A stretch of DNA of 64,000 nucleotides from Pontixanthobacter rizhaonensis (GTDB lineage: Bacteria; Pseudomonadota; Alphaproteobacteria; Sphingomonadales; Sphingomonadaceae): contig NZ_JABCRE010000003.1 of the NCBI RefSeq assembly GCF_012972675.1, positions 248,001 through 312,000 of the forward strand, written 5' to 3'. This document shows, piece after piece, positions 58,512 to 63,481 of this stretch. The position numbers and the translations under genes are program-made. Every line of letters starts with the position of its first letter. Position 1 is the first letter of the stretch. The notes under the pieces were generated by a model. It made no database searches. It was not told where the DNA came from and saw only the letters and a program-made list of their open reading frames with translations.

Positions 58512-59669
58512 GTGACTGACAACACCATACATATCATGCCCGCAAATACTAAGGCAGAACGTGCTGCCTTTGTTGACCTCGGCCGAAAATTTGCCGCAGC
58601 GACACCAAACAGCGTGCCGCAGCTGCGTAGCGAACAACTGGAACTGGTTGATCCGGCCAAGAATCCATTCTTCGGGCACGCCCGCGTTCAGCTCTACATG
58701 GCCTTTCGCGGCGGTATCGCTGTTGGACGTATATCCGCCCATATTGATGAACTGGCTCTGGAACTGCCCCGCGAGCAAGGGATGGGACCTGGGACCGGTA
58801 TGTTCGGGTATTTTGACGCGGAGGACGAAGACGTCGGCAAAGCGCTGATGGCACAAGCGGAACAGTGGTTGCGCGATCAAGGCATGAACAGGGTGCTGGG
58901 GCCAATCAGTATGTCGATTTGGGAAGAACCCGGCCTGCTCACGCTGGGTCATGATCACCCGCCGATGATCATGATGGGCCACCATCCTGCCCATTATCAG
59001 GCATGGATTGAAGGCAATGAATACACCGTTGCCAAACGGCTTCTGACCTATGATCTGGAAGTTTCCAAAAAATTCCCCCCCATTGTCGAGCGCGTGGTCA
59101 AAGCCACCCAGCGTAACGGAAAAATCAAAATGCGCGCGGCAGATAAAAGCCGTTTTGCTGACGAGGTCCGGATAATCCTCGATATTTTGAACGACGCATG
59201 GTCCGATAATTGGGGCTTTGTGCCATTTACGGACCGAGAGATCGCCTATGCGGCCAAAAAACTGAAACCACTCGTCCATCCTGAACTGATCAAAATTGTC
59301 GAGTTGGAAGGAAGGCCTATCGCCTTCATTATTACGTTACCCAACGTGAATGATGTGCTGACCGAAATTAACGGGAAAATGCTGCCATTTGGCTGGCTGA
59401 AACTATTGAAATGGTCGCGAAAACCCGTGAATACCGGGATGCGGGTTCCGTTAATGGGTGTCTTGAAGGAATTTCATGGCAGCCGGATGGCAAGCCAATG
59501 CGCCTTCCTGATGATCGACGAAATACGCCGCAATGCCGATGAAGTCTTCAATTCCAGACACGGAGAAATCGGATGGATATTGGACGACAACCAGGGAATG
59601 GTCTCCATCGCCGACATGATTAACAGTAAAATCAATCGCGAATATCTGATCTACGAGAAATCGCTGTAA
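58512..59669 (+). CDS. GNAT-like conserved protein, 385 aa
   Basis: 385 residues with an acyltransferase-like core: FFGHARVQLYMAFRGGIAVGRISAHID, TGMFGYFDAEDEDVGKALMAQAEQWLRDQGMNRVLGPISMSIWEEPGLL, then a second half with FADEVRIILDILNDAWSDNWGFVPFTDREI. It matches a conserved proteobacterial family of unknown function often mis-named as a dATP pyrophosphohydrolase. Start GTG 58512. Its end lies just before the minus-strand sRNA terminator. Confidence 0.85.
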   Translation: MTDNTIHIMPANTKAERAAFVDLGRKFAAATPNSVPQLRSEQLELVDPAKNPFFGHARVQLYMAFRGGIAVGRISAHIDELALELPREQGMGPGTGMFGYFDAEDEDVGKALMAQAEQWLRDQGMNRVLGPISMSIWEEPGLLTLGHDHPPMIMMGHHPAHYQAWIEGNEYTVAKRLLTYDLEVSKKFPPIVERVVKATQRNGKIKMRAADKSRFADEVRIILDILNDAWSDNWGFVPFTDREIAYAAKKLKPLVHPELIKIVELEGRPIAFIITLPNVNDVLTEINGKMLPFGWLKLLKWSRKPVNTGMRVPLMGVLKEFHGSRMASQCAFLMIDEIRRNADEVFNSRHGEIGWILDDNQGMVSIADMINSKINREYLIYEKSL

Positions 59670-59675
59670 CCGCCC

Positions 59676-59717
59676 AAAATTAAAAGGCCTCCACTCCGGT
59701 TGCGGAGTGGAGGCCTT
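59676..59717 (-). terminator. Intrinsic terminator of the candidate sRNA
   Basis: A 13-bp stem GGCCTCCACTCCG / CGGAGTGGAGGCC with a CAAC loop; the T-rich tract TTTTAATTTT follows on the minus strand. The plus strand has only TT, so termination is mainly minus-strand, though it may also slow transcription leaving the 385-aa gene. Confidence 0.88.
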
Positions 59718-59766
59718 AGGATCATATCACCACCGCTTGGACGGGAGGGGGGTCTCGGCGGTGATA
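59676..59766 (-). ncRNA. Candidate GsrN-like stress-induced small RNA
   Basis: About 90 nt on the minus strand. It begins with hairpin TATCACCGCCG / CGGTGGTGATA (59766-59725), whose loop is C-rich (ACCCCCCTCCCGTCC), able to pair with Shine-Dalgarno-like purines. It ends with hairpin GGCCTCCACTCCG / CGGAGTGGAGGCC followed by TTTTAATTTT (to about 59676). The stem has a G-U pair on the minus strand where the plus strand would have an A-C mismatch, so the minus strand is the functional one. A GGAAC-N16-CATT promoter places the start at the first base of the hairpin. In Caulobacter, GsrN is a stress-sigma-dependent sRNA with a C-rich 5' loop; the homology is inferred. Confidence 0.72.
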
Positions 59767-59773
59767 CAAGATA

Positions 59774-59798
59774 AATGCTCACCCAGCCGGTCGGTTCC
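59774..59798 (-). promoter_or_regulatory. EcfG-type promoter of the candidate sRNA
   Basis: Minus strand GGAAC (59798-59794), 16 bases, CATT (59777-59774). The expected start, seven to eight bases on, coincides with the first base of the C-rich hairpin at 59766. Confidence 0.65.
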
Positions 59799-59938
59799 TG
59801 CCGAAAATAAAAAATCGTCAGAAAATCACTAAACCATTGATTTCATATGCGTAATTTCGATGATTTCTTGCATAGTCCAGCTTGGAATGCCAAAAATTCA
59901 CAAATGGCCCTCGGATAAAAATTACGTTTGCAAAAACC

Positions 59939-59963
59939 GGAACATTCAGGCCTTGTAACCGTT
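59939..59963 (+). promoter_or_regulatory. EcfG-type promoter of phyR
   Basis: GGAAC (59939-59943), 16 bases, CGTT (59960-59963), a full match to the alphaproteobacterial general stress promoter. About 50 bases before the leader end at the phyR ATG. Implies positive feedback on phyR. Confidence 0.85.
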
Positions 59964-60021
59964 AGTGCTGGTCTCGGATGTGTATGCGTCCATATTAGAA
60001 TTTGAATAGGGAACGTATTCC

Positions 60022-60816
60022 ATGTCGCTTGGTCAAGAAATCGCCCAACATCTCCCGTTTCTGCGCCGCTATGCAAGGGCGCTAACAGGCTCTCAACAAT
60101 CCGGGGACAGCTTCGTCAGCGCCACGCTGGAAGCTGCACTGGCAGATGATGCGCTCAAAGCGAGCCTGTCTGACGGGCGCGTGCCGTTATATGCAGCCTT
60201 CAACAAAGTCTGGTCGAGCGCATATCTGGAAGTTGAAGGCAGCGCAGGAACGGTGAGCGAGCACGAGGCAGCTGCGCAAGGACGGCTGCGTCAAGTTACG
60301 CCTCTGAACCGTCAGGCTCTTTTGCTGACCACATTGGAAGACTTCACCCTCGCAGAAGCCGCGCAGATCATGGATCTGGATCAAGACAATGTTCAGCGAC
60401 TGATCACTGAAGCTGTTTCAGAAATCGACAAAGAATCTGCAACACGCGTTCTGATTATCGAGGATGAGCCGCTCATCTCGATGCAATTGGAAGACCTCGT
60501 GACGGGCCTTGGCCACGAAGTGTGCGGCACCGCTGCAACCAGAACGCAGGCAACCGAACTCGCGGCATCAACAACACCGGGTCTTGTACTCGCTGATATC
60601 CAACTGGCCGATGGCTCATCCGGCCTCGATGCGGTCGATGATATCCTGCAAATGGGCAGCGTTCCGGTAATCTTTATTACAGCATATCCAGAGCGGTTGC
60701 TGACCGGCGACCGGCCCGAACCAACCTATCTCGTCACCAAGCCATTCCAAGAAGCAACGGTGCGAACCGCGATCAGCCAAGCTCTGTTCTTCGGATCGAG
60801 CAAGCCGCTAGACTAG
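60022..60816 (+). CDS. phyR: General stress response regulator PhyR
   Basis: 264 residues. Residues 1-135 form a sigma-factor-like (EcfG-mimic) domain without promoter contact (LPFLRRYARALTGSQQSGDSFV, LEDFTLAEAAQIMDLDQDNVQRLI); 141-262 is a receiver with acidic pocket E147/D148/E149, phospho-acceptor Asp192 in VLADIQLADG and Lys in VTKPFQ. Once phosphorylated it binds NepR and frees EcfG. It starts from an EcfG promoter. An AGGGAACG ribosome site precedes the ATG. Confidence 0.97.
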   Translation: MSLGQEIAQHLPFLRRYARALTGSQQSGDSFVSATLEAALADDALKASLSDGRVPLYAAFNKVWSSAYLEVEGSAGTVSEHEAAAQGRLRQVTPLNRQALLLTTLEDFTLAEAAQIMDLDQDNVQRLITEAVSEIDKESATRVLIIEDEPLISMQLEDLVTGLGHEVCGTAATRTQATELAASTTPGLVLADIQLADGSSGLDAVDDILQMGSVPVIFITAYPERLLTGDRPEPTYLVTKPFQEATVRTAISQALFFGSSKPLD

Positions 60817-62606: not shown

Positions 62607-62633
62607 GGAACCAAACACAGCGGGCTTCGTTCC
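62607..62633. promoter_or_regulatory. Interleaved divergent EcfG-type promoters (nepR-ecfG and kinase)
   Basis: Plus strand: GGAAC 62607-62611, 16 bases, CGTT 62628-62631, driving nepR-ecfG. Minus strand over the same bases: GGAAC 62633-62629, 16 bases, GGTT 62612-62609, driving the kinase. The two promoters occupy the same 27 bases. Confidence 0.75.
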
Positions 62634-62702: not shown

Positions 62703-62873
62703 ATGAACGATAACGAAACCCCTAACCAGCGACATAACGCTGATGATGGCGACACCACTGTCGACCAGCCGGAGTGGGCTGACGGCCTACGCCAGCTCTA
62801 TGACTCAGTGGTCGACGAGCCCCTGCCGGACAGCTTTAAAGATCTGCTGTCTAAGCTCGACGACAAATCCTGA
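62703..62873 (+). CDS. nepR: Anti-sigma factor NepR
   Basis: 56 residues; too short for usual ORF lists. The core WADGLRQLYDSVVDEPLPDSFKDLLSKLD is the NepR signature (L-x-x-x-Y-x-x-x-x-x-E-P-x-P), two helices that hold EcfG inactive until phospho-PhyR takes NepR away. Its TGA overlaps the ecfG ATG (TGATG), so the pair is translated together. Promoter at 62607. Confidence 0.96.
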   Translation: MNDNETPNQRHNADDGDTTVDQPEWADGLRQLYDSVVDEPLPDSFKDLLSKLDDKS

Positions 62874-63481
62874 TGGAAAATAGTAAGCGCTCTGCTGCCG
62901 AAAAAGCAGATTTTAAACGGGAATTGACCGAAGTCGTTCCGCATTTGCGGGCGTTTGCTCGCGGCCTATGCGGCAGACCCGATATGGCGGATGATCTCGT
63001 CCAAGAAACCATGCTCAAAGCTTGGGCAGCACAGGAACGGTTTGAGCCAGGCACATCTATGCGTGCCTGGACATTTGTGATCCTGCGTAATGCATATTTG
63101 ACCGACATGCGCCGCAACCGGTTTCGCGGCGAGTATGACGAGGGTGTGGCCGAACGCATCTTGACTGCGCCCGCTGGTCAAGAGGAGCCTATCCACCTAT
63201 CCGATATGCACCGTGCGCTATTGACCCTGCCGCCGGAAAGGCGCGAGGCTCTCCTTCTGGTCGGAGCAGGCGGGTTTTCTTACGAGGAGGCGGCCAATAT
63301 TTGCGGTTGCGCAGTCGGCACCATAAAAAGCCGTGTCGGACGCGCGCGTGCGGCGCTCACCTCTATGCTGGAAGATGGCGACATTCCCCAGCGGTCCATC
63401 GGCGACGCACGGGCGCACCGGGCGATCTTGCAAGAATTGGACGATGTGGCAGCGGGCAAAGGTATAGCGACAAAAGTGTAA
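62873..63481 (+). CDS. ecfG: General stress ECF sigma factor EcfG
   Basis: 202 residues, ECF15-type sigma factor. Region 2: LRAFARGLCGRPDMADDLVQETMLKAWAAQERFEPGTSMRAWTFVILRNAYLTDMRRNRF; region 4: ALLTLPPERREALLLVGAGGFSYEEAANICGCAVGTIKSRVGRAR. Directs RNA polymerase to GGAAC-N16-CGTT promoters, such as those in this window. Last gene of the nepR-ecfG operon. Confidence 0.97.
   Translation: MENSKRSAAEKADFKRELTEVVPHLRAFARGLCGRPDMADDLVQETMLKAWAAQERFEPGTSMRAWTFVILRNAYLTDMRRNRFRGEYDEGVAERILTAPAGQEEPIHLSDMHRALLTLPPERREALLLVGAGGFSYEEAANICGCAVGTIKSRVGRARAALTSMLEDGDIPQRSIGDARAHRAILQELDDVAAGKGIATKV

Follow-up and report, generated by a model that had tools for sequence, protein, structure and literature searches.

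The minus strand of the window, the 64-kb stretch of Pontixanthobacter rizhaonensis DNA analyzed here, very probably encodes an EcfG-dependent, trans-acting sRNA of about 91 nt (59676–59766, −) that would act in the alphaproteobacterial GSR in the manner of GsrN. Its promoter, fold, terminator, location and deep conservation can all be read from the sequence. The four marks of an EcfG-dependent C-loop sRNA of the GSR (an EcfG site, a C-rich loop, a terminator and a position in the GSR locus) were all found.

A probable sRNA gene divergent to phyR

The minus strand from 59798 to 59676 opens with GGAAC-N16-CATT. After a gap of 7 nt comes a C-rich-loop hairpin, which a short linker joins to a terminator with a 15-bp stem and a tail rich in U. 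The EcfG-type promoter (GGAACCGACCGGCTGGGTGAGCATT; 59774–59798, −) was found by pattern scan. Matches to GGAAC-N16/17-CRTT are over-represented in the window, with 8 observed against 2.2 expected, a count reached by none of 100 shuffles. The limits of the gene rest on the fold and on a match of 91.3 bits (G000:C3:307676-307766) to the covariance model R1, described below; the 5′ end was placed from the promoter distance and the 5′ stem. Upstream of the −35 element is an A/T-rich tract (59804–59818, −) that resembles an UP element, in the sequence itself and in a profile of 145 distinct sites. Among relatives, the corresponding A6T4-like block before GGAAC is conserved (about 45–54 nt ahead of the first stem TCA; 145 sites) and looks like the UP element of an ECF promoter.

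The segment 59767–59676 (−) folds at −49.5 kcal/mol (z −8.45), a value equaled by none of 200 shuffles. The predicted 5′ hairpin (TATCACCGCCG...CGGTGGTGATA; 59724–59767, −) has 12 pairs, of which two are G-U (the outermost pair being one), plus 3 inner pairs and a C6 loop. This loop, GAGACCCCCCUCCCGUCCAA, whose form is conserved, is the proposed target-binding site. A single-stranded linker, GATCCT (59718–59723, −), follows; its counterpart in relatives belongs to a conserved CGATCC, found at 141 of 146 distinct sites. The intrinsic terminator (59676–59717, −) was called on the minus strand only, as a 15-bp stem followed by TTAATTTT. Pattern scan, fold and terminator listing therefore bear out the sequence-only reading, which had proposed a GGAAC-N16-CATT promoter, a C-rich-loop hairpin and a same-strand terminator on this strand.

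The same reading placed the sRNA divergent to phyR, and the neighbor (60022–60816, +), an anti-anti-sigma response regulator, does carry the PhyR Pfam domains (PF22029, PF22233 and PF00072). By pattern scan it has an EcfG-type promoter of its own, GGAAC-N16-CGTT (59939–59963, +), divergent from that of the sRNA. An ecfG-type sigma factor with sigma-70 r2/r4 domains is found at 62873–63481 (+), preceded by a small ORF that is NepR-like by its motif. A further EcfG-type promoter site at 62607 (+) stands before this ORF, 241 nt ahead of the ecfG start. The window also contains a CHASE-HWE kinase, recognized, as were PhyR and the EcfG-type sigma factor, by Pfam domains. The gene on the other side (58512–59669, +) had been called GNAT-like, a label for which no Pfam match was obtained at E 0.001.

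Two other EcfG-type promoter matches in the window precede reading frames. One (28370–28346, −) lies 28 nt before the frame of a secreted-looking protein of 305 aa, and the other (7450–7426, −) lies 11–65 nt before a lipoprotein-looking frame of 192–210 aa. The genes behind them are candidate members of the EcfG regulon.

Distribution among relatives

A phyR search across 199 genomes of the family supplied 30 loci, and R1 was built from an alignment (A1) of 22 copies from relatives. R1 scored 59.6–109.5 bits in 85 of the 199 genomes, and the next best match reached at most 37 bits; at E 0.001 the count is 86 genomes, the last (G134) with just 32 bits. The 85 positive genomes coincide exactly with those in which phyR shares 64% identity or more with the window's copy; the next phyR is 61% identical. 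The sRNA is divergent from phyR and within 1.8 kb of it in all 85, with a gap of 133–1706 bp (median 206) that exceeds 700 bp in 18. At two loci with a wide gap (L073 and L074), a gene named by reading as Crp/Fnr-like lies between sRNA and phyR. The sRNA core was also found at all eight of the 30 phyR loci in which phyR is on the minus strand.

Across 385 genomes of the class, R1 gave high scores in four, all from the same family, and three weak matches outside it (31.0–34.6 bits). In a FastTree tree of PhyR, rooted with the L239 protein and containing long branches of which the program warns, all 57 rows of sRNA holders fall in a single clade, with support 94. A search of genome contigs with the core pattern returned at least 118 stretches; the matches listed are mainly from Erythrobacteraceae and Novosphingobium.

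Conservation of promoter, loop and terminator

Distinct sites (146) were chosen by the RNA core alone, so that the promoter was no part of the filter. GGAA(C/T)-N16-18-YRTT nevertheless lies upstream in 138 of them, with a spacing of 16 in 132; the remaining eight keep GGAAC and have no scored −10. Promoter and hairpin are thus both conserved in relatives, and one of the refuting outcomes named by the sequence-only reading, their loss beside conserved flanking genes, did not occur. A conservation profile of 145 sites is at background beyond about −55 and elevated over the A/T tract (−54 to −45), GGAAC, the −10 element and the entire RNA. The −10 reads CATT in 121 of the 138 sRNA promoters; the phyR promoters identified, at 26 of the 30 loci, have CGTT at their end.

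The loop has the form GAGAC6-8UCCCGUCC in 139 of the 146 sites; its C-run is 6–8 long in 145 and 5 in one. Since the length of the run varies from 5 to 8, no reading frame is maintained, and a small-protein reading was ruled out. Near-invariance of an unpaired loop fits what is expected of a binding site.

Compensatory changes, which the sequence-only reading had proposed to look for in the hairpin, are found mainly in one half of the RNA. In an alignment of 92 distinct sequences fitted to the model (A4), 12 of the 13 modeled terminator pairs show changes on both sides. For the 5′ stem the corresponding figure is 0 of 11 in A4; seven of these pairs never vary, and 99.5% of cells are paired. 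The free alignment A1 yields one such pair. The 5′ hairpin therefore stands on folding and invariance.

These patterns bear on the proposal that there is no independent sRNA here, and that the terminator of the convergent gene (58512–59669, +) adjoins a processed or cis-acting hairpin. The symmetrical 15-bp stem does start 15 bp past the stop codon of that gene, but its U-tract is on the minus strand only, and both the fixed-distance promoter and the near-invariant loop persist where genes intervene before phyR. Downstream of the promoter, minus-strand starts within 300 nt open just one frame of at least 50 aa, a 53-aa TTG frame, and the next long minus-strand frame (59279–58413, −) is antisense to the neighboring gene. 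We consider this explanation scarcely credible, and an sRNA gene by far the better account of the segment.

Relation to GsrN

In the literature examined, GsrN is the sole functionally characterized sRNA of the alphaproteobacterial GSR that we met (PMC5869019). That paper describes the product of the Caulobacter gene (CCNA_R0081) as roughly 100 nt long, transcribed from an EcfG-type, sigT promoter, with six or more C in a 5′ loop and an intrinsic terminator at its end. In Caulobacteraceae the gene is typically, but not universally, near ecfG-nepR-phyR; homologues are described there, and candidates in Rhizobiales (PMC5869019). GsrN is a sigma-dependent transcript, stabilized by Hfq and cut to a 5′ isoform of 51–54 nt, with a stress phenotype. 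Rfam family CC3552 (RF01529) is, we infer, GsrN, judging by the eLife description of a C-rich loop, a sigT promoter and BLASTn matches limited to Caulobacteraceae.

GsrN was sampled from the phyR regions of 40 class genomes, chosen among the 60 that lie outside the family and match phyR at E 1e-25. Scanning these regions for an EcfG site, a loop C-run and a terminator gave seven candidates; four altered promoter patterns gave 0, 0, 1 and 0. Two regions, L239 and L243, hold the same kind of RNA. The PhyR of L239 matches PDB 3n0r (426 bits), presumably a Caulobacter protein. With the L243 RNA as query, BLASTn gave matches in 34 of 80 genomes from that family. The 24 distinct copies of GsrN have C-runs of 6–9, 17 of them with a scored promoter, and Rfam assigns the L281 copy to CC3552 (RF01529) at 102.9 bits. 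Another family of the class (f5) shows a further candidate transcript with an EcfG promoter and a C-rich stretch near phyR (L246 4169, −; L258 6693, +).

A covariance model of GsrN, R3, was built from 18 copies. It recovered all nine GsrN control loci at 56.8–128.5 bits; L239 repeats a training row and L243 and L278 are one gene, and the seven distinct held-out genes scored 56.8–107.1 bits. At E ≤ 10, R3 found no match in the window or in 21 relatives' loci that hold the phyR-divergent sRNA. RF01529 is likewise absent from the seven Rfam matches at E ≤ 10 for window positions 59600–60020. The covariance search with the GsrN family that had been suggested as a check thus finds nothing in the window, and by this test the window sRNA falls outside that family. 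In the reverse direction, the best R1 score over 19 GsrN loci was 20.7 bits (E 0.012; L303), for a stretch covering a terminator half.

Structure and position also differ. In GsrN a long outer stem encloses an inner hairpin, and the loop reads CGACGCCCCCCCGAC, whereas the window sRNA has a single hairpin with at most three inner pairs. At L239 and L243, GsrN is encoded on the phyR strand and downstream of that gene, whereas the window sRNA is upstream and divergent. Shared by the two are the EcfG-type promoter directly upstream, at least six C in the 5′ loop, the terminator, the size class and the place in the GSR locus. Putative Rhizobiaceae homologues of GsrN, as PMC5869019 describes them, share with the window sRNA an EcfG site, a position close to the GSR locus and an exposed C-rich loop.

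The sequence-only reading had called the RNA GsrN-like. That description holds for its design (promoter, C-rich 5′ loop, phyR locus and conservation); common descent did not find the same support, with RF01529 and R3 both missing it and with fold and katG pairing (see below) differing. It could be a diverged true orthologue of Caulobacter GsrN, of alphaproteobacterial ancestry, to which sequence models are blind. Such an origin would explain why sigma-type promoter, C-rich loop, size class, terminator and GSR neighborhood are all common to GsrN; it would also suit the existence of a second Sphingomonadaceae sRNA family of the same design near phyR (described below), and the match of R1 to a terminator half at one of 19 GsrN loci points the same way. 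Against it stand the failure of R3 and RF01529, the lack of the inner hairpin in the predicted fold and the opposite arrangement relative to phyR in L239 and L243. We regard orthology as possible but doubtful. The window sRNA is best described as GsrN-like in design, its homology to GsrN being not demonstrable from the sequences compared.

No Rfam family passes its threshold at the window sRNA. The best E in a permissive scan, 0.0026, belonged to ctRNA_p42d, which was rejected: its 25.1 bits compare with a gathering score of 50 and the match covers the terminator hairpin only. PyrG_leader and others were below threshold in the same scan. CC1840 (RF01521) gave a weak full-length match of 25.6 bits, with two hairpins and a C-rich first loop in common. 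Membership was rejected, given a gathering score of 50 bits and no match at E ≤ 1 in the window's whole genome; CC1840 was also absent, at E ≤ 0.01, from 36 genomes of the class.

A second predicted sRNA family in Sphingomonadaceae

We read 40 phyR regions from members of the family without a strong R1 match. At least 25 carry a second sRNA, 22 of them found by regular expression and three more being L201, L210 and L218. It has the stem GGATAGCGA, the loop CCTTTTGCCCCCCCGCTC and an extra C-run in the terminator loop. An EcfG-type promoter was scored in 19 of the 22, and GGAAC is kept in the other three. In the 22 regions this sRNA is divergent from phyR at a distance of 1.8–2.4 kb; in L195 a gene named by reading as kinase-like lies between the two. 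Among 21 copies, 15 of 24 modeled pairs show changes on both sides. Scanning of L195 and L204 gave no Rfam match at the gathering score.

The second family thus has an EcfG-type promoter, a loop C-run, a terminator and divergence from phyR in common with the window sRNA, but the two are unrelated in sequence. Cross-matches between R1 and a model of the second family, R2, reach at most 17.5 bits at the RNAs themselves, and R3 scores at most 18.6 bits in the 22 second-family loci. R2 matches 66 of the 199 family genomes at 43 bits or more, none of them among the 85 positive for R1, so that the two types are mutually exclusive across genomes. Neither type is found at these cut-offs in 48 of the 199. 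Some R2 matches lie on other contigs, and linkage to phyR is therefore not universal for this family.

Eight further genomes, that of the window included, pass E 0.001 with R2 at 34–39 bits. The match in the window's own genome (36.5 bits) was rejected as a second sRNA and is an intergenic hairpin instead. This hairpin lies outside the window at G000:C3:361079-361160 (L237, about 1501–1582); it is GC-rich, its loop (CCCCTCCCCCTCCC) is rich in C, and a T-rich tail follows. Its flanking genes are, by reading of the sequence, ahpC and ahpF, and it may serve a peroxide-defense operon as an attenuator or partial terminator.

Candidate targets

GsrN pairs with the katG leader, a pairing that is not supported for the window loop. 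Of 28 genomes searched, 25 have katG (PF00141), but none of the 24 leaders scored gave a special signal: in 0 of 24 did fewer than 0.15 of shuffled loops pair equally well. One leader (L311) was dropped, its start not being recognized. We rejected katG as a target. Exact 10-mer complements of the loop are no commoner than a control with the reversed pattern, both in the window's own genome (5, one being the sRNA's own antisense, versus 6) and in six genomes (33 versus 35). Among 15 complements read in context, three (L348, L357 and L361) shortly precede frames of 430–494 aa; all three are in one genome of another genus.

The C-rich loop might instead have phyR as its main target, pairing with a G-rich ribosome-binding site and damping the stress response by feedback. 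Of the clade's 102 phyR leaders, 61 have GGAAGGG ahead of the start codon (starts placed mechanically, relatives not thinned). The same motif was found at five neighboring genes in 0 of 63, 1 of 35, 0 of 39, 0 of 51 and 0 of 22 cases, and in 0 of 40 phyR leaders from the other lineage. As the genomes are related, however, the 61 leaders are not 61 events. A long duplex is predicted for L028 (−17.4 kcal/mol), but three more clade leaders give −13.2 to −14.0, which one phyR leader from the other lineage matches (−13.9). The window's own genome has AGGGAACG in place of GGAAGGG and pairs weakly (−7.2), and the loop outperforms its own shuffles by only a modest margin (median 0.20). With weak pairing in its own genome and an other-lineage leader performing equally well, phyR is a lead only, and we think its role as the main target improbable. 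Irrespective of the sRNA, GGAAGGG is an unusual ribosome-binding site of phyR within the clade.

Proposed function and significance

We infer EcfG control, transcription and a pairing mechanism for the window sRNA along the following lines. Stress would activate PhyR and so free EcfG from NepR. EcfG would then transcribe the sRNA from the GGAAC/CATT promoter, divergently from phyR. The transcript, ending at the intrinsic terminator, is predicted to form a 5′ hairpin that exposes the near-invariant C-rich loop. This loop may pair with G-rich mRNA leaders or ribosome-binding sites and affect their stability or translation, in the way that GsrN acts in Caulobacter.

A literature search of titles and the starts of abstracts gave no paper on a GSR sRNA in Sphingomonadales. 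Two EcfG regulon papers were searched for sRNA terms: none was found in PMC6599016, and in PMC7083833 one reference title (SuhB) was the sole match. A term search of PMC8103513 gave no mention of GsrN. The legend to Fig. 9 of PMC5869019 lists Erythrobacter litoralis as without an apparent gsrN-like gene. This statement is doubtful for the genus or group because 26 Erythrobacter records are among the core-pattern matches listed; it is not disproved for the species, which is not among the at least 118 matches listed.

C-loop sRNAs with an EcfG promoter, known or predicted, are found in at least three lineages: Caulobacteraceae; Erythrobacteraceae with Novosphingobium; and other Sphingomonadaceae. 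They are mutually unrecognizable by covariance models. We tentatively suggest that the C-loop sRNA may be an obligatory but sequence-replaceable part of the GSR, present in at least three lineages with the same design, often near phyR, and that in the window's clade it may also loop back on the G-rich phyR ribosome-binding site. For two sRNA families with no above-threshold Rfam match, the promoter, ends and loop are now defined sufficiently for a northern probe and a deletion, and many holders are named strains, so that tests in culture are feasible. It becomes testable whether a post-transcriptional arm belongs to every PhyR-NepR-EcfG switch, and by what route an sRNA gene retains its place and design while its sequence identity is lost. 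If the suggestion is true, the part and its locus would endure while the RNA itself is remade.
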